Shown: positions 506-40,561, counted from the first letter of the stretch. The stretch: 40,683 nt of DNA from a virus (IMGVR_UViG_3300032893_000136:1-40683); one strand, 5' to 3'. Numbers and translations: made by a program. Notes: generated by a model not told the origin, from the sequence alone.

Positions 506-1300
506 CTATGCCCTCGGGGTCGTATTCGCGGGAACGTCCTTGGCTTCCTCCAAATGAGCCGAAAGAGACTTCTTTGCCTCTTCGACAAATTTCTCAAGCT
601 CTCCCTTTGCCGCTGTCACTCGGTCAAGGGCTCCGGTCATTACCGCCGAATGGCTGTCGAGTTGGGTTTCGATCACCGACACGGTTTCTTTCAGTTTCGG
701 CGTCACAACGCCTTCGAGGAAGTTTTGCAATTTCTGATCGAATTCCTCCAGCGAAGGAACGAACGTTGCCGGTGTTAGTGGTGTCGCATCTCCGACCCTT
801 TCGGGCATCGTCCAGCAGCCGGCCGTAGTACCGCAGGGAGCTTCATCAACGATTCCGCAACAAAGTTGCTTTACGCCCTGTGATTCATGGATCTGATCGC
901 CAGGGAAATTCGCATTCGCCTGGTCGCTCGGATGGAAGAACAGAACTCCGGTGGCTGCATCGGTTTCTTTGTCATGCCACAAAACCAGCAGTGGGCGCCG
1001 TGTTCCGTCCTTCATCACGTAATGAACCAATCGGTTCGTTGTTAGATTGTGAATGATTTGTGCAAGTTTTTCGCCGGCGTTTTCCATCGCGGCGACTTCG
1101 TTTTGCAGTTCGCTCATGTGTATTCTCTCTTTCGTTTGGACCCACGTCACGTTAGCATCGAAAATGATAACGGGAGCGTTAGGTGTTACAAGTTTGAACG
1201 GTTCATCCCCTCTATTCCCGATTCTTCGCCGCCACTCAATTCTTCCATCCGGCATTTTGGTATAGCGATCGGTGACGACAATCCACTCAGGCTTTCCCAT
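506..1300 (-). CDS. Hypothetical protein, 264 aa, coiled-coil C-terminus, possible internal start
   Basis: The protein family is not recognised. Residues 1-60 look like a small beta domain with the repeated pattern R-I-E-W-R-R-R. Residues 90-185 form a mixed domain with several Cys (C-C-G and C-G-x-x-A-G-C), and residues 190-264 are a predicted coiled coil rich in Glu, Lys and Ala. The ATG at 1298-1300 has an AAGGAG ribosome site 10 bases upstream and overlaps the preceding gene by 14 bases. An in-frame ATG at 1115-1117 (residue 62) is preceded by ACGAAAGAGAG, the same string found before two start-element genes at 33386 and 34378. A shorter 203-residue product may therefore also, or instead, be made. 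Confidence 0.7.
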   Translation of the reverse strand: MGKPEWIVVTDRYTKMPDGRIEWRRRIGNRGDEPFKLVTPNAPVIIFDANVTWVQTKERIHMSELQNEVAAMENAGEKLAQIIHNLTTNRLVHYVMKDGTRRPLLVLWHDKETDAATGVLFFHPSDQANANFPGDQIHESQGVKQLCCGIVDEAPCGTTAGCWTMPERVGDATPLTPATFVPSLEEFDQKLQNFLEGVVTPKLKETVSVIETQLDSHSAVMTGALDRVTAAKGELEKFVEEAKKSLSAHLEEAKDVPANTTPRA

Positions 1301-27973: not shown

Positions 27974-28141
27974 ATGTTCCTTCATCACATTCCGGTTTGT
28001 AAGTTGTGCGGGGCGCCAGGTCATCGAGAATCGACGTGTGCACTTCGCCGGCTGAATGAAAAACAAGAAGTTTCTTCTGCCGCATTTAGCAAAGCCGATC
28101 TGGATAAAGTCAGAAGTCGAGGAGCTAAACCATGCCGGTAA
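27974..28141 (+). CDS. CCHC zinc-knuckle microprotein, 55 aa
   Basis: The frame runs from the ATG at 27974 to the TAA at 28139-28141, overlapping the next gene by 10 bases. Residues 9-22 are C-x2-C-x4-H-x4-C (C9, C12, H17, C22), the exact spacing of retroviral-type CCHC zinc knuckles, including G13, G16 and H17. The remainder is a charged helix. No Shine-Dalgarno is visible, so expression may depend on coupling to the previous stop three bases upstream. Binding to single-stranded RNA or DNA is the usual property of the motif; here it is inference. Confidence 0.55.
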   Translation: MFLHHIPVCKLCGAPGHRESTCALRRLNEKQEVSSAAFSKADLDKVRSRGAKPCR

Positions 28142-33289: not shown

Positions 33290-33329
33290 ATTTCCACAAT
33301 TCGGACTCGATTTCAACAAAAGAATTTTA

Positions 33330-33361
33330 TTGACTCGGAACAGCCAAAGTAGTAGCTTTGG
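33330..33361 (+). promoter_or_regulatory. Putative promoter with overlapping inverted-repeat operator
   Basis: TTGACT (33330-33335) is a good -35, followed after 17 bases by TAGCTT, a weak -10. The inverted repeat CCAAAG-tagtag-CTTTGG (33344-33361) covers the -10, as an operator would. It precedes the first start element and the 33386 gene. Confidence 0.45.
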
Positions 33362-33374
33362 TTGAAACGAAAGA

Positions 33375-33385
33375 GAGCTATTGAG
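33375..33385 (+). promoter_or_regulatory. Start element, exact copy 1
   Basis: GAGCTATTGAG directly abuts the ATG at 33386 and is preceded by ACGAAA. The GAGAG part can act as Shine-Dalgarno, but conservation of the remaining bases up to the ATG goes beyond ribosome binding. Confidence 0.7.
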
Positions 33386-33616
33386 ATGAGCAACAGTTTC
33401 CTGCTAGAAACCTCCCTTTATGTATCCATCGAGCACTTACAAGACGTGCTAGATGAAATGTCGCGCGACCTGGCTTATCTCGGCGATGACATTTTCCGCA
33501 AGGGGCATTCCGATGAGGTTTTGCGGAGACTCGGCAATCTCACTGGCAAGGTAGATTTTCTTCGGTACTTAATCCATGAAACCAAAAGAAAGCAAGATAC
33601 CTCCCCATCACGTTAA
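33386..33616 (+). CDS. Hypothetical protein, 76 aa
   Basis: The start is fixed by the GAGCTATTGAG element directly before the ATG. The product is helical, with charged and Leu-rich heptad-like stretches ([16 protein letters not shown]). Family unknown. The end overlaps the acyl carrier protein gene by 41 bases. Confidence 0.7.
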
Positions 33617-33848
33617 AGTTAGAAACGTGTTGGCAGAAATCCTCGGCGTCGATGAAGCCGAATGCACGGCCGACGCTAACCTGTTTGATGACCTGGGCGC
33701 GGATTCGCTCGACATCATAGAACTGATGATGGGAGTAGAAGAGGCGCTCGATATTGAAATCGTGGATGAGACGGCTGAGAAGTGGAAAACGGTCGGCGAC
33801 ATCTGCGCCACGGTAGAAAAACTTGCCAAAGGACCAAACGAAGTTTGA
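33576..33848 (+). CDS. Acyl carrier protein
   Basis: A 90-residue acyl carrier protein. [11 protein letters not shown] at residues 40-50 is the phosphopantetheine attachment motif, with Ser44 the modified residue. The flanking helices match the family, including F-D-D-L before it and E-E-A-L-D-I-E-I after it. A host phosphopantetheinyl transferase would be needed. There is no ketosynthase or other fatty-acid enzyme in the window, so it either enters host lipid synthesis or serves as a binding partner. The start is not supported by a Shine-Dalgarno and lies inside the preceding gene. A later GTG would shorten the N-terminus. Confidence 0.88.
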
Positions 33849-34080
33849 GGCAATCGAGGCGGCGATTGCAACCTGTTGCGATCGCAAATTGATTGCTCTA
33901 CTTAACCGCGCCTGGTGGCGCGAATATTTCAGAAGGGAGAAAGATCATGAGTCGTCTGCATATTGCCAGTATGTTGTCTCACATCGCGGCTCTAATCGCG
34001 ATGCTGCATCACCTGATGAAGTAGAAACGGCAGTTGGGCCAAAGCAGTTAACAAATCCAGCCAATCGGAGGCAAGAATGA
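33823..34080 (+). CDS. Hypothetical protein, 85 aa, uncertain
   Basis: The frame starts at a TTG inside the acyl carrier gene and overlaps the next gene as ATGA. Residues 1-42 look protein-like (helix with [20 protein letters not shown]). The second half is less convincing and is shared with another small frame at 33947. No ribosome site is clear. It may be a real gene, or only its first half may be meaningful. Confidence 0.4.
33947..34024 (+). CDS. Possible 25-residue hydrophobic peptide
   Basis: The ATG at 33947 follows AAGGGAGAAAGATC, a strong Shine-Dalgarno at normal spacing. The 25-residue product is a hydrophobic or amphipathic helix with repeated His, Leu, Met and Ala, long enough to enter or cross a membrane. 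It lies inside the 33823 frame in another register; both cannot easily be under full selection. Confidence 0.4.
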   Translation: MSRLHIASMLSHIAALIAMLHHLMK

Positions 34081-34292
34081 ATCGAGAGGAAATAGTAACC
34101 GCGCTGAAAGATGAGCGCGATCGAATTGATGAGGCACTGATCGCCCTTGGCGGCAAGAAGGGCGTCGTCAATGCAAGCGGCCGGCGATCGTATGGCATCA
34201 CGGCGGCCGGCCGAAAGCGTCTGTCGGATCTGATGAAGAAACGGTGGGCCGATCGGCGCAAAGGTCCCAGGCTGCTGAGAAAGGGCGCCTAA
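34077..34292 (+). CDS. Small basic protein, possible DNA-binding, 71 aa
   Basis: GGAGG lies upstream of the ATG. An acidic N-terminal helix is followed by G-R-R-S-Y-G-I-T-A-A-G-R-K-R-L-S-D-L and K-K-R-W-A-D-R-R-K. This type of Arg/Lys-rich segment ending in K-x-R-W-A recurs in small proteins that I associate with Acidobacteriota genomes and phages. DNA binding is likely from charge; nothing more specific can be said. Confidence 0.65.
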   Translation: MNREEIVTALKDERDRIDEALIALGGKKGVVNASGRRSYGITAAGRKRLSDLMKKRWADRRKGPRLLRKGA

Positions 34293-34308
34293 AACTTCTC
34301 CCCCAAAG

Positions 34309-34348
34309 GGGCTGTGAGCCTTCCCCGTCCCTTGACTCACAGCCCTTT
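34309..34348 (+). promoter_or_regulatory. Long-armed inverted repeat, terminator-like or 5' UTR hairpin
   Basis: GGGCTGTGAG (34309-34318) and CTCACAGCCC (34336-34345) pair perfectly over 10 bp with a 17-base loop, followed by only TTT. It is either a weak terminator after the 34292 gene or a control element ahead of the next start-element gene. Confidence 0.55.
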
Positions 34349-34366
34349 ACCCTTCAGGACGAAAGA

Positions 34367-34377
34367 GAGCTATTGAA
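34367..34377 (+). promoter_or_regulatory. Start element, copy 2 (one mismatch)
   Basis: GAGCTATTGAA directly before the ATG at 34378, preceded by ACGAAA as at 33375. Confidence 0.65.
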
Positions 34378-35727
34378 ATGAAAATCAAGCAATTCACGGC
34401 TGAGAACATCAAGAAATTGAAGGTGGTCGAAATCACACCCAAAGGCTCTATGGTGCAAATCACCGGCGCCAACGGCCAGGGTAAATCTTCGGTGCTAGAT
34501 GCGATCGAGTATGCGATCTGTGGCACGGTCAGCATTCCCTCGGCGCCGGTCCGCAAGGGCGCCGGCAAAGCTAAGATTCGCCTCGACCTGGGCGACGTGG
34601 TAGTAACGCGCCGGTTCATCGAGGGCGGGGGTACAAGTCTCGCCGTCGAGAATGCACAAGGGGCAAGCTACAAGTCTCCTCAAAAGATGCTGGATGATCT
34701 GATGGGGCGGATTTCCTTTGACCCGCTCGGCTTTACTCGCCTTCATCCCAAAGAACAACTCGAAGAACTGCGGCGCCTGGTCAAGCTGGAAATCAATCTC
34801 GATGAAATCGATCAATTGAACGAAGAGGATTACAAAAAGAGGACGGAAGTCGGCCGGCTGCTTCGTGGCTTGCAATCTGAGCAGGATGCGATCGCCGTCC
34901 CTGAAAACCTACCGGCCGAATCGATCGACCTTACTAAGCTGACTCAGGAATTGGCTGAGGCTGGCGAAAAGAATGCGGCAATATCGGCCGAAAAGAATCG
35001 GCGCGATTATGCGAAACGGCGCATTGAGGAACTGCGATCGGCCGCTCGCAAACAGCGCGATGAAGCTGAACGTCTGCGGAGATTGGCGGAAACGATTGAC
35101 GCGGAGGCGAACAGGATCGAAACCGAAGCGGACGCTCTCGGCGAAGGTGAACTTAAGATGCCGGCTTTAGAGGCATTCGTAGATTTAGCGGTCCTCACCG
35201 GCGCGATCGAGGAAGGGCGCCGGCACAATAAGCTTATTGAGGATCGCGATCGCCGGCGCCAAGTCGAGGCCAAGATCGCGGAAACCGAAAATGAGCAAAC
35301 TCGCCTGACCAACGCGATCGAGGCGCGCAACAAACAAAAGACCGAAGCGATCGCTAAAGCTGAGATGCCGGTCCCCGGGCTTGGCTTCGGGGATGGCGAG
35401 GTCCTTTACAACGATCTGCCGCTGAACGTGGCGAGCGATGCGGAACAGTTGCGAGTGTCGGTGGCGATCGCGATGGCGGCGAATCCGAAGCTGCGGGTTA
35501 TCCGCATTCGTGACGGGAGTCTCCTCGATGACAAGAATCTGGCGCTAATCGCGGAGATGGCAGAGAAAGGCGATTACCAGGTTTGGATCGAGCGCGTCGA
35601 TACAAGCGGCAAGGTCGGAATCGTAATGGAGGACGGCCAGGTCGTGAGCGTCCACGATGAACCCGAGAAGGAATCCGCGCCGGCGCCAAAGAAAGGCAAA
35701 GGTAAGAAGCATGAAAAAACCGATTGA
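34378..35727 (+). CDS. SMC/RecF-like AAA ATPase, 449 aa
   Basis: An ATP-dependent DNA-metabolism protein of the SbcC/RecF/SMC type. Walker A is G-A-N-G-Q-G-K-S-S (30-38). Residues about 150-330 are coiled coil, and an ABC-signature-like stretch S-D-A-E-Q-L-R-V-S-V-A-I-A occurs near 370-382. The segment where Walker B is expected reads R-V-I-R-I-R-D-G-S-L-L-D, without the usual D-E pair, so hydrolysis may be weak or rely on another residue. The Lys-rich tail overlaps the next gene. No adjacent SbcD-type nuclease is seen. The start is marked by the start element. Confidence 0.8.
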   Translation: MKIKQFTAENIKKLKVVEITPKGSMVQITGANGQGKSSVLDAIEYAICGTVSIPSAPVRKGAGKAKIRLDLGDVVVTRRFIEGGGTSLAVENAQGASYKSPQKMLDDLMGRISFDPLGFTRLHPKEQLEELRRLVKLEINLDEIDQLNEEDYKKRTEVGRLLRGLQSEQDAIAVPENLPAESIDLTKLTQELAEAGEKNAAISAEKNRRDYAKRRIEELRSAARKQRDEAERLRRLAETIDAEANRIETEADALGEGELKMPALEAFVDLAVLTGAIEEGRRHNKLIEDRDRRRQVEAKIAETENEQTRLTNAIEARNKQKTEAIAKAEMPVPGLGFGDGEVLYNDLPLNVASDAEQLRVSVAIAMAANPKLRVIRIRDGSLLDDKNLALIAEMAEKGDYQVWIERVDTSGKVGIVMEDGQVVSVHDEPEKESAPAPKKGKGKKHEKTD

Positions 35728-35947
35728 ACAGCGGCATATTATCGGCGAGCGCCATCTTCGGGAGTTAATCAAGCGCAAGCTGAACAATGGCCACAACTAT
35801 ACTTCCCTGGCGACTGAGTTCGGGGTATCGGCTCAGTTCTTGAGTAAGGTTGTGCGCGGTGACTATGCTCCTGGTCCGAAGATCGCCGAAAAGATGGGCT
35901 ACCGGCAAGTGACGGCATTCGTCAAAGAAGAGGCGGCCAAAGGATGA
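35711..35947 (+). CDS. HTH DNA-binding protein, XRE-like, 78 aa
   Basis: The ATG at 35711 lies inside the ATPase gene end, with AAGGT upstream. Residues about 30-62 form a helix-turn-helix: Y-T-S-L-A-T-E-F-G-V-S-A-Q-F-L-S-K-V-V-R-G. A Lys/Arg-rich start precedes it. It may control the surrounding start-element genes. It overlaps the following gene as ATGA. Confidence 0.7.
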   Translation: MKKPIEQRHIIGERHLRELIKRKLNNGHNYTSLATEFGVSAQFLSKVVRGDYAPGPKIAEKMGYRQVTAFVKEEAAKG

Positions 35948-36258
35948 GCGATCAAGTAGGGCTCAGGATCACCGAAGAATCGCCGGCGCACAGCGCGCAA
36001 GAAAATAACTATGATCCCTTGGGGCCGGCGAAGCGGGTCGAAAAGCGGATCGAATGCGCGATGTGTCCAGCCACAAAAGGGGCTGTCAATCATTGGTGGT
36101 GTGTCTGGATCGATGGGGTTGGCAGGATGGTAATAACGTCCTTCAAAGAGGATCTGATGACAGGCAATGCCGTCCATGCGATCTGCGGCACTGCCTGTCT
36201 CTTGAAAGCGGTCCAGAAGTTTACGAATCGATCGGCTGAGACGATTCAGGCGCCTTAA
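35944..36258 (+). CDS. Hypothetical protein with Cys pairs, 104 aa
   Basis: It starts in ATGA overlap with the HTH gene. C-A-M-C (about residues 38-41) and C-G-T-A-C (about 81-85) could bind zinc, with Trp-rich strands between. Last gene of the rightward block; its end overlaps a convergent gene by 38 bases. Function unknown. Confidence 0.65.
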   Translation: MSDQVGLRITEESPAHSAQENNYDPLGPAKRVEKRIECAMCPATKGAVNHWWCVWIDGVGRMVITSFKEDLMTGNAVHAICGTACLLKAVQKFTNRSAETIQAP

Positions 36259-36565
36259 TTCGCCGGCGTCCTTTGGGATAGCCGCGCGGTTGTTTTCCCT
36301 CCCCTGGCGGCCGGCTGCGAAGCTCGCGAATTACTGCGGGGTCCTTTGCAGCGGTCGCCTTTCCTCCCTTCGATGCCATGCACTTTGGACAGTTGACGGC
36401 GCCATGCGTCGGGCAGTGAAGCGGCATCGCGCGCAATCGGCGCAGTAGATTGGTGCAGACGGCCGCGAGGATCGAAACATTCTCGGCATAGCCATCCATC
36501 AAAAGTTGCTCCACAGCGTCGAGTTCGCCGTAGAGAGCGACATTGTAAGGATGAGGATCGTTCAT
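36221..36565 (-). CDS. Hypothetical protein with C-x-x-C motif, 114 aa
   Basis: The ATG at 36563-36565 overlaps the upstream stop as ATGA and follows GGAGG. It has an acidic helical N-terminus (A-V-E-Q-L-L-M-D-G-Y), then C-P-T-H-G-A-V-N-C-P-K-C, a compact four-ligand zinc motif, and a basic Pro/Arg/Lys-rich tail. It is convergent with, and overlaps, the plus-strand gene ending at 36258. DNA or RNA binding is plausible; no family recognised. Confidence 0.65.
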   Translation of the reverse strand: MNDPHPYNVALYGELDAVEQLLMDGYAENVSILAAVCTNLLRRLRAMPLHCPTHGAVNCPKCMASKGGKATAAKDPAVIRELRSRPPGEGKQPRGYPKGRRRIKAPESSQPIDS

Positions 36566-36885
36566 GGTGTGTACCTCCAAGTGGTATGGACAAAGCGGTA
36601 ATCGGGGTGCTCGCGTTCGATCTGGACGGATTGAAGCCAAGCAAGTTCTTTGTCTGTGAACGGGCCGGCGACATTCTCTTTCTTGTGGCTGCCTGGTGGA
36701 TCGCAAGGGACATCGGCGGTCACAAAGTACTGCTTCGATAACCTGGTAACTCTCTTGATGGTGACAGGGCGGCCGATAATCAAGCGATCGGGAACGGCGC
36801 GAACAACATTCGCGATCGCAGTATGAGCGGAGGCGGCGCGCGTCTTGTGCTCGCGGCCTTGGAATTCAACGGTATATTCCTTCAT
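36562..36885 (-). CDS. Hypothetical protein, 107 aa
   Basis: I start at the ATG at 36883-36885 because the start-element variant GAGTTATTGAG abuts it. A longer frame from 36912 would read through the element. The product is beta-rich at first (Y-T-V-E-F-Q-G, I-K-R-V-T-R-L) with a helical C-terminus containing K-E-L-A-W-L-Q-S-V-Q. Translation is probably coupled to a leader ORF upstream. Family unknown. Confidence 0.65.
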   Translation of the reverse strand: MKEYTVEFQGREHKTRAASAHTAIANVVRAVPDRLIIGRPVTIKRVTRLSKQYFVTADVPCDPPGSHKKENVAGPFTDKELAWLQSVQIEREHPDYRFVHTTWRYTP

Positions 36886-36917
36886 CTCAATAACTCCTTT
36901 TCTGTGGTACACTGCAT
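36882..36917 (-). CDS. 11-codon leader ORF between two start elements
   Basis: ATG at 36915-36917 lies three bases after an exact start element (36921-36931). The ORF ends with TGA overlapping the start of the 36885 gene as ATGA. The peptide is M-Q-C-T-T-E-K-E-L-L-R. It could be a leader peptide for translational control or a relic of a gene once started at this element. Confidence 0.35.
   Translation of the reverse strand: MQCTTEKELLR
36886..36896 (-). promoter_or_regulatory. Start element, copy 3 (one mismatch)
   Basis: On the minus strand GAGTTATTGAG, directly before the ATG of the 36562-36885 gene, preceded by AAAAG. Confidence 0.65.
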
Positions 36918-36920
36918 TTA

Positions 36921-36931
36921 CTCAATAGCTC
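36921..36931 (-). promoter_or_regulatory. Start element, exact copy 4
   Basis: Minus-strand GAGCTATTGAG, followed by TAA and then the ATG of the 11-codon leader ORF. It is the only copy not directly abutting an ATG. Confidence 0.6.
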
Positions 36932-36934
36932 CTA

Positions 36935-36957
36935 GTCCCTGGCGCGAGGTCAGGGAC
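36935..36957. promoter_or_regulatory. Perfect inverted repeat beside start element 4
   Basis: GTCCCTG (36935-36941) and CAGGGAC (36951-36957) with a nine-base centre, three bases from the start element. Could be an operator or an mRNA hairpin. Confidence 0.5.
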
Positions 36958-36960
36958 AAA

Positions 36961-37000
36961 CGGCGATCGGCATCTCAACCGATCGCCGCTTTTCTTTTAG
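36961..37000. terminator. Bidirectional terminator-like hairpin
   Basis: CGGCGATCGG (36961-36970) pairs perfectly with CCGATCGCCG (36979-36988) over an eight-base loop. On the plus strand CTTTTCTTTT follows; on the minus strand TTTG follows. It lies 8 bases after the stop of the 36997-37452 gene and could end transcription from both sides. Confidence 0.65.
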
Positions 37001-37452
37001 GGACGTGGGAAAAAGTCGGCCACATCAAACGGCGCCGGCTCGGGATTCAGTCGCCAAACTCTAAAGTTAGCGAGCGTATCAAAGCCATTGTGGGCCATTC
37101 GGATATTTTCAGAGAAGAACCAAACGGAGCCAAATCTGCGTTCCTCGGTCGCTTCAAATCTTGCGATCGGGATTCCTGGTTCAAGTCCTCCACTGTAATC
37201 GACGTATGTGTCCCCAAGATAGAAGCTGCCGCTGCTGCCGCTGGTGAGTTGAATCGAATCTCCCCAATGGTGGGCGACTCGATGGAGGTTCTCGCCGACG
37301 ATTACAAAGTCGCCGACTCCAATCTCCTTGCGTTCGTCAAGAAATCGCTGGCGCCGGGCGAGAATGTCCTTGTTGTGGGCATCGATCGGCCGTTTCATCT
37401 TTTCGGCCCAGGTATGGTAGTGGGCTAGTCCTGCCAGTTCTCGATAGTTCAT
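36997..37452 (-). CDS. Hypothetical protein, 151 aa
   Basis: The start at 37450-37452 is fixed by an exact start element directly upstream. The sequence is acidic/aromatic at first (Y-H-T-W-A-E-K-M-K-R-P-I-D-A-H-N-K-D), then beta-rich from about residue 45 to 120 with G-D-F-V-I-V-G-E and G-S-F-Y-L-G-D-T-Y-V-D-Y. Family unknown. It is the last gene before a terminator-like hairpin. Confidence 0.65.
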   Translation of the reverse strand: MNYRELAGLAHYHTWAEKMKRPIDAHNKDILARRQRFLDERKEIGVGDFVIVGENLHRVAHHWGDSIQLTSGSSGSFYLGDTYVDYSGGLEPGIPIARFEATEERRFGSVWFFSENIRMAHNGFDTLANFRVWRLNPEPAPFDVADFFPRP

Positions 37453-37463
37453 CTCAATAGCTC
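37453..37463 (-). promoter_or_regulatory. Start element, exact copy 5
   Basis: Minus-strand GAGCTATTGAG directly before the 36997-37452 ATG, preceded by GAAAAGA. Confidence 0.7.
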
Positions 37464-37469
37464 TCTTTT

Positions 37470-38102
37470 CTATTGCAGAACTTCTGCAATTGCGTTGCGG
37501 ATTGACTTGTTTCGCGCGTGGTGAGCGCGCATTCCTTTGGCGTGGCGGAAGTTTGCGAGGATCTGAATTCCTCGATTCCACTTCCGAAACTCATCGGGGT
37601 TGAGCCATTCGCCGGCCTTGCGGCGATCGCCCAGGGGCTGAAAAGCTTTTGACCATTCGGCTTTGAACTGCTCGCACAGTTGCCGGTACTCGATCGCGCG
37701 CGCGGCGCCGGCCTTCGGAGTTCCTACGCGCGGGATGGGGCCGTGGGTGTAAACCGGGACTACGATTCCGCTGCCGTGGTTCTTCCCTCCACAGTGGCAA
37801 TCACAGCTAGGGCCGCGCGCGCCGGTACATCTGGCGTCACAAATCGGCCGCCATCCGGTTTGCTTTTGAAGGAATGAGTCGGCGACGGTTTCCCCGAGGT
37901 ACTCGATTCCTCCCTCGCAAGCGTCACAGATTGCTTTCGGCACTCTGCCGCGCCGGTCGTCGTATATCTCCTCTAAGCGATCGGCGACAGCTACAACGGT
38001 CAGGCAATCGGCACAACGGTAGAAATGGCGCGGCTTCATCTTCTCAGCGATCGCCGGCGCCGGCGTCGGGTTGGGTTCAAATAGGTTCATGGTTTCGATC
38101 AT
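37470..38102 (-). CDS. Hypothetical multi-Cys zinc-binding-like protein, 210 aa
   Basis: I start at the ATG at 38100-38102, which overlaps the upstream stop as ATGA. C-A-D-C and C-D-A-C (near residues 30-60) form a likely four-Cys zinc ribbon. A second cluster (I-C-D-A-R-C, C-D-C-H-C-G-G-K-N-H-G) forms another Cys/His-rich site near residue 95. The C-terminal half is helical and basic. Such two-cluster proteins occur in phage genomes without known role. The last codons overlap the inverted repeat at 37473-37489. Confidence 0.7.
   Translation of the reverse strand: MIETMNLFEPNPTPAPAIAEKMKPRHFYRCADCLTVVAVADRLEEIYDDRRGRVPKAICDACEGGIEYLGETVADSFLQKQTGWRPICDARCTGARGPSCDCHCGGKNHGSGIVVPVYTHGPIPRVGTPKAGAARAIEYRQLCEQFKAEWSKAFQPLGDRRKAGEWLNPDEFRKWNRGIQILANFRHAKGMRAHHARNKSIRNAIAEVLQ
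37473..37489. promoter_or_regulatory. Perfect 17-bp inverted repeat beside start element 5
   Basis: TTGCAGAA-C-TTCTGCAA is perfectly symmetric and lies nine bases from the start element, within the last codons of the upstream gene. Possible operator. Confidence 0.55.
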
Positions 38103-38311
38103 GCGCTTTCCCCTGCTTCGATCTGGTAATGCTTGATGTTGATTAAGGGGAAGTAGTGCCAAATGAATTGGCCTACGCTTTGGAAGCTACCTCGAATATT
38201 CAAAATCCCATCACTCGCAAAAACTTGAGGGAAAGCTTCGGGGTCGAGTCTTAAAACATCTCGCTTCCCATCTGTGTAATGAATCACGATAACTCTGTTT
38301 GGTGCTGGCAT
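38099..38311 (-). CDS. Hypothetical protein, 70 aa
   Basis: The start follows an exact start element. It is a small beta-rich protein with V-I-V-I-H-Y-T-D-G-K-R and a later F-I-W-H-Y-F-P-L-I-N-I-K. Family unknown. Its upstream region is one copy of the duplicated 90-bp cassette. Confidence 0.65.
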   Translation of the reverse strand: MPAPNRVIVIHYTDGKRDVLRLDPEAFPQVFASDGILNIRGSFQSVGQFIWHYFPLINIKHYQIEAGESA

Positions 38312-38322
38312 CTCAATAGCTC
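38312..38322 (-). promoter_or_regulatory. Start element, exact copy 6
   Basis: Minus-strand GAGCTATTGAG directly before the 38099-38311 ATG, preceded by AAAAAG. Confidence 0.7.
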
Positions 38323-38327
38323 CTTTT

Positions 38328-38417
38328 TCTAACTCTGTTGCGCGATCGTTCGGACATTCGCGCGCGGGAGTTACGGCCGCGCGTGGTTGCGCGCGGCTCG
38401 CCGTCCTCCGTCTAATT
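38328..38417. repeat. 90-bp direct repeat, copy A (intergenic cassette)
   Basis: Identical over 90 bases to 38616-38705. It runs from the A-rich leader before start element 6 to the last codons (A-A-T-T-A-G) of the upstream gene, and contains the hairpin GCCGCGCG-n6-CGCGCGGC (38376-38397). Confidence 0.93.
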
Positions 38418-38600
38418 TCCGTCATCCTCCATCAATTTATTTCCCTCATCCTCCATCAATTTTGCATTTTGTTTTGCCAGATATTCCTGGGCATGCGCCA
38501 ACAATTTGTGAGCGAAAGGATCGTTTCTGACTTTGATGCGCGAGGGCCACATTAACTCGATCGCATCTTGATTCGCTATGTAGATTGCTAAGGTGTCCAT
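38412..38600 (-). CDS. Hypothetical protein, 62 aa, with duplicated 8-residue tail
   Basis: The start follows start element 7. The first 45 residues are helical. The tail is K-L-M-E-D-E-G-N followed by K-L-M-E-D-D-G-N, from a recent 24-bp tandem duplication. Family unknown. It lies between the two copies of the 90-bp cassette. Confidence 0.6.
   Translation of the reverse strand: MDTLAIYIANQDAIELMWPSRIKVRNDPFAHKLLAHAQEYLAKQNAKLMEDEGNKLMEDDGN
38415..38462. repeat. 24-bp tandem duplication in the 38412-38600 gene
   Basis: Units 38415-38438 and 38439-38462 differ at one base. In frame, they encode the repeated 8-residue acidic tail. Confidence 0.85.
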
Positions 38601-38611
38601 CTCAAAAGCTC
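38601..38611 (-). promoter_or_regulatory. Start element, copy 7 (one mismatch)
   Basis: Minus-strand GAGCTTTTGAG directly before the 38412-38600 ATG. Confidence 0.6.
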
Positions 38612-38615
38612 CTTC

Positions 38616-38705
38616 TCTAACTCTGTTGCGCGATCGTTCGGACATTCGCGCGCGGGAGTTACGGCCGCGCGTGGTTGCGCGCGGCTCGCCGTCCTCCGTC
38701 TAATT
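38616..38705. repeat. 90-bp direct repeat, copy B (intergenic cassette)
   Basis: Perfect copy of 38328-38417, with its hairpin at 38664-38685. It includes the last codon and stop of the ArdC-like gene. Confidence 0.93.
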
Positions 38706-39554
38706 CCACTGCTCGCCGGAGCATTCGACATTCTCGCCGGTAGCATCGTGCTCCTCGACCAATCCAATAATCTCCTGTGCCGTCTTTTGGACGGTTTCGA
38801 GGGAGTTCATCAAATCGGCCGCCGTAACTCCATAACTTGCTAGATAGAATTCGGACCTAGGCTTTAAGCCGAAGTGAGAAGCGATCACATAGGAAGCGGC
38901 TTCGGCTTCTAACTCTCTTTGTTTCTGTGAGGGCTTATAGTCGCCGAAGTGCGAAAGGCAATGTGTCAATTCGTGGATGAGGACGGCCGCGCGATCGGCG
39001 GCCGGGAGTTCTGAATCGATCACTATCTCGCTACCCTTGCGGTGTGCGTATCCTTTGGCGGCCGTTTCGATCGGTTCATACTTGACGCAAATAGACTTCT
39101 TGCGCGCGATCGCTTCCAGCGATTCAACCAACCAATCCGAATGCTCGCCGGCACACTCATCCGGTAATTCCGGTAATGGTTGGCCGTCGGTTTGCGAGAT
39201 GTCGAAAACATACACAATGCGAAAACCAAGTCGTTTCGCTTCGTTCTCGCCGGCGCCGGCCGCAATCGCGGCTTTGTCTTTGAAGAACATAGGCGCGAAA
39301 ATTGGAATTCCTGTCTCGCCCTTCATTACAAAACGGTTCATCTTTTGCCAGGTCCGAAACCCTGCAACGCGCGTTGCATTCGGCTTCTTACTCCAAATGA
39401 GTGCGCAATTGTGCCATGAGTAATCGTGGAACATAGCGCACGTATCTAAGAAGTTTTTGAATTGGTCGGATTGTCTCGCCGCATCGGTTTCAGCGGCGAG
39501 TGTTTCGACTAGGGTTTTCACTTCGGCTTTGATAGTTGCTGCTTTTTCGTTCAT
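38700..39554 (-). CDS. ArdC-like antirestriction / zinc metallopeptidase-domain protein
   Basis: Both halves of ArdC-type proteins are visible in 284 residues. The N-terminal ssDNA-binding region has Y-S-W-H-N-C-A-L-I-W (45-54) and G-F-R-T-W-Q-K-M-N-R-F-V (65-76). The C-terminal half has a zinc-peptidase motif H-E-L-T-H at 194-198 and a Glu-rich third-ligand helix E-L-E-A-E-A near 214-219. ArdC proteins protect incoming DNA against host restriction, and phage members are usually expressed early. The start is marked by start element 8. Confidence 0.82.
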   Translation of the reverse strand: MNEKAATIKAEVKTLVETLAAETDAARQSDQFKNFLDTCAMFHDYSWHNCALIWSKKPNATRVAGFRTWQKMNRFVMKGETGIPIFAPMFFKDKAAIAAGAGENEAKRLGFRIVYVFDISQTDGQPLPELPDECAGEHSDWLVESLEAIARKKSICVKYEPIETAAKGYAHRKGSEIVIDSELPAADRAAVLIHELTHCLSHFGDYKPSQKQRELEAEAASYVIASHFGLKPRSEFYLASYGVTAADLMNSLETVQKTAQEIIGLVEEHDATGENVECSGEQWN

Positions 39555-39565
39555 CTCAATAGCTC
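39555..39565 (-). promoter_or_regulatory. Start element, exact copy 8
   Basis: Minus-strand GAGCTATTGAG directly before the ArdC-like ATG, preceded by CGAAAGT. A GCCGGC-n10-GCCGGC inverted repeat lies upstream at 39582-39603. Confidence 0.7.
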
Positions 39566-39610
39566 ACTTTCGTTTTGATCTGCCGGCGATCGGCTCGGCC
39601 GGCGAAATTG

Positions 39611-40288
39611 TTAGACGGCCGCCATTACCTCGGTTTCAAGTCGCATCAAAGCCTCTCTAACGTTATTGGCAGAGTCTTTGACTATGCGCGCGAAATTTGG
39701 GCGATCGGCCGCGCAATTGGTTTCTTTGTCCCAGATCGCCTCAAGTAGTTTCGCCGCATCCTGTGACAGTCCATAGCTAGAGAATTCGAGGACGTGTGCG
39801 CGGCTTAGGAAGCGATCTTCTAAGCGATCGGTAGAATTACAGGTGAAAATGAAAATAGTGTTAGGCGGAAAGTTTGTCGAATCCAGTTTAGAGAGTAAGT
39901 ACAATTGCGCGGCCGGCGACATCTGATCGGCTTCATCTACTAGAACAAGGTGATACTTAAAGCCGGTCATCGGAAGATAGTTGCAGGTCCGCATGACACG
40001 CTCCAAGGTGGCCAAATTGCACTCTTGCGAGGGGATATGATGCAATTCGGCCGGTATAGCTTTGGCAACGGCCATTGCAAGAGTAGTTTTGCCAGTACCA
40101 GATGAACCCTTGAAAATCCATGCACTCTGGAATGGTTTCGCAACCAATTTGCGCATAATCGCGCGCGGCTTTTCTAAGCCGATAAAGGATTCGATCGATT
40201 GCGGCCGGTACTTCTCGGTTAGAGGAACGGGAAAATCGAAACCGGGCTGGGCGCCGGCGATCTGAATTGTCTGATTTTCGAATAGCAT
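39611..40288 (-). CDS. AAA+ ATPase, RFC/DnaX clamp-loader-like
   Basis: L-T-E-K-Y-R-P-Q-S-I at residues 23-32 is the clamp-loader N-terminal signature. Walker A is G-S-S-G-T-G-K-T-T (61-69) and Walker B is L-V-L-V-D-E-A-D (114-121). Sensor 1 is T-C-N-S-T (149-153), followed by D-R-F-L-S-R (158-163), the position of the S-R-C arginine. The C-terminal lid is short (225 aa in total). Clamp loaders place the sliding clamp on primed DNA. No clamp or polymerase is seen here, so it may act with host proteins or do another ATPase job. First gene of the leftward block; the start is marked by start element 9. Confidence 0.85.
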   Translation of the reverse strand: MLFENQTIQIAGAQPGFDFPVPLTEKYRPQSIESFIGLEKPRAIMRKLVAKPFQSAWIFKGSSGTGKTTLAMAVAKAIPAELHHIPSQECNLATLERVMRTCNYLPMTGFKYHLVLVDEADQMSPAAQLYLLSKLDSTNFPPNTIFIFTCNSTDRLEDRFLSRAHVLEFSSYGLSQDAAKLLEAIWDKETNCAADRPNFARIVKDSANNVREALMRLETEVMAAV

Positions 40289-40299
40289 CTCAATAGCTC
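40289..40299 (-). promoter_or_regulatory. Start element, exact copy 9
   Basis: Minus-strand GAGCTATTGAG directly before the clamp-loader-like ATG. Confidence 0.7.
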
Positions 40300-40319: not shown

Positions 40320-40349
40320 TGTATAAACTAAGTGGTCAGTTATTGTCAA
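40320..40349 (-). promoter_or_regulatory. Sigma70-like leftward promoter
   Basis: On the minus strand a perfect TTGACA (40344-40349) is followed after 18 bases by TATACA (40320-40325). It would start transcription near 40313 for the clamp-loader, ArdC-like and downstream genes. The best promoter match in the window. Confidence 0.65.
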
Positions 40350-40400
40350 GAGAATTCTTTTGTGTACGCTCACAAAGCCGAATTTAAGCGATTCGAATAG

Positions 40401-40561
40401 CAAGCGATCTGCCGGCGATCTGCAACCAATTAGAATGATGCGCGCATAGTGCGCACAATAATAAGATAGGCGCCGGCGAGCTAATCGGGACCAATCCGCA
40501 AGCGATCTGCAGGCGAATTAGCAACCGATCGGCGAGGGAATAGCAAGCGATCTGCCGGCGA
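40401..40561. other. Iteron-like repeat region, candidate replication origin
   Basis: CAAGCGATCTGCCGGCGA occurs at 40401-40418 and 40544-40561, with a one-base variant at 40499-40516. Partial copies lie between (for example GCAACCGATCGGCGAG at 40521-40536). The 395 bases from 40289 to the window end contain no plausible gene. Direct repeats in an intergenic region near a replication ATPase gene suggest initiator binding sites or an origin. TGCGC-GCATAGT-GCGCA near 40440-40456 adds a small inverted repeat. Confidence 0.5.

Follow-up and report, generated by a model that had tools for sequence, protein, structure and literature searches.

Why should several early genes of one phage, coding for unrelated proteins, all be preceded by the same 11 bases? 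The 40,683-base viral record IMGVR_UViG_3300032893_000136 (the window, analysed at its full length) raises this question with the sequence GAGCTATTGAG. The original prediction had described nine copies on both strands, six exact and three with one mismatch, eight of them lying directly against an ATG and the ninth three bases upstream of a leader ATG. All of this was reproduced with the same coordinates (Table 1), the copy at 36921 being followed by TAA-ATG. All nine copies fall within positions 33,375-40,299 and point in the direction of transcription. No further copy with 0-1 mismatch exists on either strand of the whole record, so that the claimed absence of full copies from the late region and the left operon holds as well. 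The tagged genes (33.4-40.3 kb) are all non-structural, while the terminase, portal and head genes are located elsewhere. We lean, with limited confidence, to the view that GAGCTATTGAG tags gene starts at the mRNA level and that the early non-structural genes of two convergent operons are thereby controlled jointly in translation.

The association with start codons is not fortuitous. Gene starts were taken from a simple gene caller and open reading frame (ORF) lists. By base rate, the binomial probability of finding at least eight of nine copies before an ATG is 2e-14, and the largest 11-mer family (within one mismatch) before any ATG had eight members, compared with two to three in 60 simulations. 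A chance origin of the family was ruled out on these two grounds. The original prediction had proposed a search with up to two mismatches; this gave 15 copies, not above chance (mean 9.6), and the signal therefore resides in the copies with 0-1 mismatch and in their position. A separate antisense RNA was considered and discarded, since the 0-1 mismatch matches on either strand were the nine sites alone.

Conservation is confined to the tag and has sharp limits. Information content is 1.2-1.7 bits per position from -11 to -1, falls to 0.3 bits at the two positions upstream of the tag, and is raised again at the A/G-rich positions -14 to -16. It ends abruptly at the ATG, with nothing conserved beyond it. 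Late genes of the same phage have at most 0.31 bits at any position upstream of the start. Half of the sites lack the G at -12 that would extend the motif to GGAG, and the conserved part is therefore not the Shine-Dalgarno core, which is less conserved than the nearly invariant spacer CTATTGAG. Since the spacer is conserved above the Shine-Dalgarno G at -12, an ordinary ribosome-binding site (RBS) is an insufficient explanation. Conservation also reaches beyond pairing with the 3' end of 16S rRNA, judged against the standard anti-Shine-Dalgarno sequence rather than that of the host; a 16S gene was not found in the Acidobacteriales metagenome-assembled genome (MAG) in which a 68% clamp-loader relative occurs.

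The front half of the tag behaves differently. The half motif GGAGCTA occurs eight times in the window, versus 2.4 expected. The original prediction had listed a single half match outside the tag region, before 1117. This was incomplete: apart from the half match ACGAAAGAGAG at 1125-1135 (minus strand), GGAGCTA lies at the RBS, or close to it, of two genes in the left operon and of a late gene (1308-1314 and 1786-1792 on the minus strand, 28121-28127 on the plus strand). This phage may therefore use the front half of the tag more generally.

According to the explanation that we favour, GAGCTATTGAG would act in cis in the mRNA, at the point where translation of co-regulated early genes begins. 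It would fill the ribosome-binding region, with GAG as the edge of the Shine-Dalgarno sequence and CTATTGAG extending to the AUG, and at most sites an upstream hairpin would separate it from the preceding cistron and keep it mostly unpaired. A factor recognising the whole 11-mer, which could be a phage RNA-binding protein, a small RNA or the initiation machinery itself, would raise or lower initiation of all tagged genes jointly. We infer action on the mRNA at initiation because of the zero spacing to the start codon, the confinement to the initiation region and the compensatory changes in hairpin leaders of related phages (see below).

The genetic context is that of two convergent early operons. 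The rightward one contains a small ORF, an acyl carrier protein, an SbcC/AAA_23-like ATPase and a weakly matched small helix-turn-helix protein (35711-35947); the leftward one comprises the clamp loader, an ArdC-like protein and small ORFs without assigned function. Untagged genes of both operons mostly overlap or closely follow the preceding gene. Fold prediction placed a hairpin upstream of the tag in seven of eight leaders, with the tag itself mostly unpaired, and the hairpins have no common sequence apart from a 93-nt duplicate. This duplicated intergenic segment precedes two neighbouring tagged genes. Beside it, the 19 nt that contain the tag carry three differences (two substitutions and an indel), as against none in the 90 nt upstream, and the copy event therefore probably did not include the tag. 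The tagged leader ORF (36882-36931) may reflect translational coupling, or may be the remnant of a deleted tagged gene. Neither the window nor the loci of six relatives had a match in Rfam 15 above the gathering score.

Table 1. Tag copies and associated leader, repeat and promoter-like features of the two early operons.
Feature	Position	Strand	Remarks
Tag, exact	33375-33385	+	adjoins ATG 33386 of 76-aa ORF
Tag, one mismatch, GAGCTATTGAA	34367-34377	+	adjoins ATG 34378 of SbcC/AAA_23-like ATPase (phrog_1499)
Tag, one mismatch, GAGTTATTGAG	36886-36896	-	adjoins ATG 36885 of 107-aa ORF (gene 36562-36885)
Tag, exact	36921-36931	-	followed by TAA-ATG, start of 11-codon leader ORF
Tag, exact	37453-37463	-	adjoins ATG 37452 of 151-aa ORF (gene 36997-37452)
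Tag, exact	38312-38322	-	adjoins ATG 38311 of 70-aa ORF
Tag, one mismatch, GAGCTTTTGAG	38601-38611	-	adjoins ATG 38600 of 62-aa ORF
Tag, exact	39555-39565	-	adjoins ATG 39554 of ArdC-like protein
Tag, exact	40289-40299	-	adjoins ATG 40288 of clamp loader
11-codon leader ORF	36882-36917	-	runs through the 36886 tag; TGA overlaps ATG of gene 36562-36885
Hairpin CCAAAG-TAGTAG-CTTTGG	33344-33361	+	fold prediction; upstream of 33375 tag
Hairpin AAAGGGGCTGTGAG...CTCACAGCCCTTT	34305-34348	+	fold prediction; upstream of 34367 tag
Hairpin GTCCCTG...CAGGGAC	36935-36957	-	upstream of 36921 tag
Second hairpin, terminator-like	36961-36988	-	same leader as 36935-36957 hairpin
Hairpin ATTGCAGAAGTTCTGCAAT	37472-37490	-	fold prediction; upstream of 37453 tag; weak, z -0.5
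Hairpin CCGCGCGCAACCACGCGCGG	38377-38396	-	fold prediction; upstream of 38312 tag
Hairpin, identical to that at 38377-38396	38665-38684	-	fold prediction; upstream of 38601 tag
Hairpin GCCGGC...GCCGGC	39582-39603	-	fold prediction; upstream of 39555 tag; weak, z -0.5
93-nt intergenic segment	38325-38417	-	99% identical to 38613-38705; includes leader hairpin, stops just upstream of tag
93-nt intergenic segment, second copy	38613-38705	-	repeat D2
Promoter-like ACAAAAGAATTTTATTGAC	33316-33334	+	upstream of rightward early operon; inverted pair I7
Promoter-like ACAAAAGAATTCTCTTGAC(A)	40345-40363	-	upstream of leftward early operon; inverted pair I7

There were no near DNA relatives of the phage among GenBank phages, a search with the portal protein yielded two viral relatives (44-52%), and searches with the ATPase, the ArdC-like protein or gene 37470-38102 found no closer viral relatives. 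The clamp loader matched 23 viral records at 37-71% identity; in bacterial genomes its clear matches were three Acidobacteria MAG contigs, which make an Acidobacteriota host likely. The record is that of a soil phage, with Acidobacteria as the probable host group. The tag as a habit of the host was considered and rejected, as GAGCTATTGAGATG (at most one mismatch) had no match in the Acidobacteriales MAG mentioned above.

GAGCTATTGAG as a start-associated family is absent from all clamp-loader relatives found, and many of them carry a different element in the matching place: a hairpin of 4-5 bp with a (T)ACC tail or one like it, the end of which lies 16-31 nt ahead of the clamp-loader start. 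The order hairpin, ACC, Shine-Dalgarno is repeated two to four times per genome in the same operon, with four copies before operon genes in L011 and L017's record, three in L013, L029, L030 and L156, two to three in L023, and two in L014, L015, L018, L020 and L024; these are lower bounds, because many viral records are fragments. Such hairpins precede 38/92 genes of the clamp-loader operon versus 73/436 other genes, and versus 7-9% in shuffled sequence. This leader type was not found before any of the window's tagged genes.

The hairpin sequence varies by phage lineage (CGGG-TTCG-CCCG, GAGGG-TTCG-CCCTC, GTGGC-GGAT-GCCAC, ATGGT-TTCG-ACCAT). Among 13 distinct hairpins, all four Watson-Crick pairs occur at two stem positions, and the covariation score is 0.59 versus 0.13 in shuffles, with 0/500 shuffles reaching 0.59; both the percentage paired and the covariation are biased upward, because the sequences were selected as hairpins and trimmed to one length. 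The strongest evidence, as far as sequence comparison goes, is the exact change of the pairing partner at otherwise matching positions, which is also seen within a single genome (GGGGC-AAT-GCCCC and GGGGA-TTCT-TCCCC in L024). Other repeats were noted in the relatives. Upstream regions in L029 (904, 2738) and L030 (1067, 2902) share TTGACTCCATCATGGAGTCATGTATAAT, a repeated promoter directly before the hairpin leader; its -35 region is covered by a perfect 9-bp inverted repeat (TGACTCCAT-ATGGAGTCA), and the promoter is likely repressor-controlled. On the other arm of L013 (6383-6975), two genes are preceded by AACCGCAACCATCAACCCCGACTTCGGGAAGGGAGACGG, a repeat of 39 nt. The sevenfold GGACTCGGATG of L013 was set aside as a tag, since it likely represents coding repeats.

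A third design was found in a 55-kb viral record (L161/G027, IMGVR_UViG_3300010366_000015), which encodes a 40% homologue of the product of tagged gene 36997-37452. TAGGGCA stands there before about 15 starts on both strands, that of the homologue among them, 0-2 or 6-7 nt from the ATG, with nearly all sites within 15-21 kb (15.1-21.1 kb of the record). Five leaders also contain CTGACGATGCCAGC (one with a single change), and these have immediately upstream a strong hairpin, the sequence of which varies. L161 apparently has another system that resembles the start-associated sequences (SAS/ESAS) of cluster K mycobacteriophages. The relatives' hairpins and TAGGGCA of L161 suggest that leader elements at early starts are a recurrent design at the RNA level.

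Several observations weigh against a translational start tag. Only one genome is known to have the tag GAGCTATTGAG: in IMG/VR scans, RGAGCTATTGAGATG and GAAARRGAGCTATTGAR hit 116 and 75 contigs with one match each, many of them inside reading frames, and at one mismatch just one contig (L084) had two ATG-adjacent copies, so that no other phage with the tag as a repeated family was found. The clamp-loader leader lacks a predicted hairpin, and two of the seven leader hairpins do not exceed shuffled sequence in stability (z about -0.5). The phage RNA-binding protein that the original prediction had suggested looking for had no recognisable candidate among the early proteins, nor did we identify any other trans-acting factor. 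Finally, the original prediction had taken relatives that keep only GGAG as evidence against its element, and literally this is what is seen at the orthologous clamp-loader, ATPase and ArdC starts, which have only a Shine-Dalgarno sequence and a different leader; its broader idea is nevertheless backed by the many relatives with another, genome-specific tag. A more far-reaching possibility, which we regard as doubtful, is that each phage of the group has its own factor reading its own start tag, linear here and hairpin-based in the relatives, and that tag and factor are replaced together, with matching early genes belonging to a translational regulon that has a different code in each phage.

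Three other explanations have to be considered. The tag could be a residue of gene-cassette shuffling, a short common junction that served as microhomology for recombination without a regulatory role. The region is indeed mosaic, the 99% identical 93-nt segments stand before two neighbouring tagged genes, leader duplications occur in relatives too, and cluster O mycobacteriophages have indels at short repeats (PMC4351075). Yet copying predicts homology of varying extent, and the shared part always ends at the ATG; many independent junctions at the same base would be required to place tags in two operons and on both strands, and the tag probably did not travel with the 93-nt copy. We consider shuffling unlikely. 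The original prediction had named a translation signal, a regulator binding site and gene shuffling side by side, and had left open whether the element is selected or copied with the genes; the retention of more than a Shine-Dalgarno sequence agrees with it, while simple copying is opposed by the D2 duplication and by the sharp limit at the ATG. It is still less probable that early genes merely converged on one Shine-Dalgarno sequence plus spacer, an unusually uniform RBS without a dedicated factor. The tag does lie exactly at the RBS and begins with GAG, the GGAGCTA sites in the left operon and before a late gene would fit, and orthologous starts in relatives retain just the Shine-Dalgarno sequence. 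This reading does not account for a spacer more conserved than the Shine-Dalgarno core, for a family of eight where simulations gave two to three, or for late genes without such a spacer.

We give very little credence to a DNA site for a phage repressor that silences early operons by blocking transcription, as the asymmetric stoperators of cluster A do. Short, asymmetric, transcription-oriented repeats in many copies in early operons, together with the small helix-turn-helix protein, would suit it. However, a site read in DNA has no need of a fixed zero distance to the start codon, and the corresponding element in relatives is a covarying hairpin of RNA type. No tag copy overlaps the promoter-like sequences at 33316 and 40363, where the upstream regions of both early operons have ACAAAAGAATTnTnTTGAC in common; it looks like a shared promoter or operator, and a promoter scan called neither site. 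Upstream of the clamp-loader copy, positions 40395-40561 of the window contain four degenerate copies of AATAGCAAGCGATCTGCCGGCGA, possibly iterons or an origin. The rightward early operon also encodes an acyl carrier protein (33576-33848; PF00550, E 5e-15).

The translational start tag that we prefer has a close parallel in layout. The SAS/ESAS of cluster K (Pope et al., 2011, PMC3203893; Adephagia, PMC11373665) have been on record since 2011, and their role is still without proof. SAS are found at non-structural genes, at the RBS position, with an ATG preference, transcription orientation, a leader gap and, at many sites, upstream inverted repeats (PMC3203893). Our tag agrees on nearly every one of these features, and conservation beyond the Shine-Dalgarno sequence is common to both systems, so the likeness in layout noted by the original prediction stands, as does the unrelated sequence: the SAS consensus GGGATAGGAGCCC (at most two deviations) does not match GAGCTATTGAG. 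SAS are 3-9 nt from the start and common to relatives, whereas the tag adjoins the ATG and is not shared by relatives. ESAS have promoter hexamers and imperfect 17-bp inverted repeats of common sequence in front of about half of the SAS, in contrast to the hairpins without common sequence seen here. The tag may thus work in a manner analogous to cluster K SAS, without a shared sequence.

Occurrence outside mycobacteriophages, on the other hand, is not novel. Microbacterium cluster EF phages have an SAS-like repeat, GGGAAAGGACCCC, that extends 16S rRNA complementarity (PMC7302621), and Citrobacter phage Mordin has a 26-bp repeat before eight genes (PMC4611695). Both are, like ours, genome- or cluster-specific RBS repeats at about 8-10 non-structural genes, with sequences unrelated to the tag; CTATTGAG differs from the EF repeat in not extending Shine-Dalgarno pairing (with the standard anti-Shine-Dalgarno sequence). 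Cluster A stoperators share asymmetry and orientation with transcription (PMC3203893, PMC4351075), but they operate at the level of transcription and keep no set position relative to start codons, unlike the zero distance to the ATG in 8/9 copies here.

Joint control at initiation also has a precedent in a single phage protein. The T4 translational repressor RegA binds initiation-region mRNA sites of several early genes, including clamp-loader genes. RegA sites are degenerate in sequence, unlike the tag, and no RegA-like protein was seen here, although no test was aimed at RegA.

SAS-like repeats of this kind are thus not new in themselves. The apparent novelty lies in one operon being tagged, in related phages, by elements that are unrelated and genome-specific; a small literature search found no published report of tag replacement between related phages. 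The present case adds an instance of the SAS type outside the published hosts. The covarying hairpins speak for action as RNA, at least of the version found in the relatives, and with different tags at one clamp-loader operon, the reading of such tags by cognate phage factors becomes testable.

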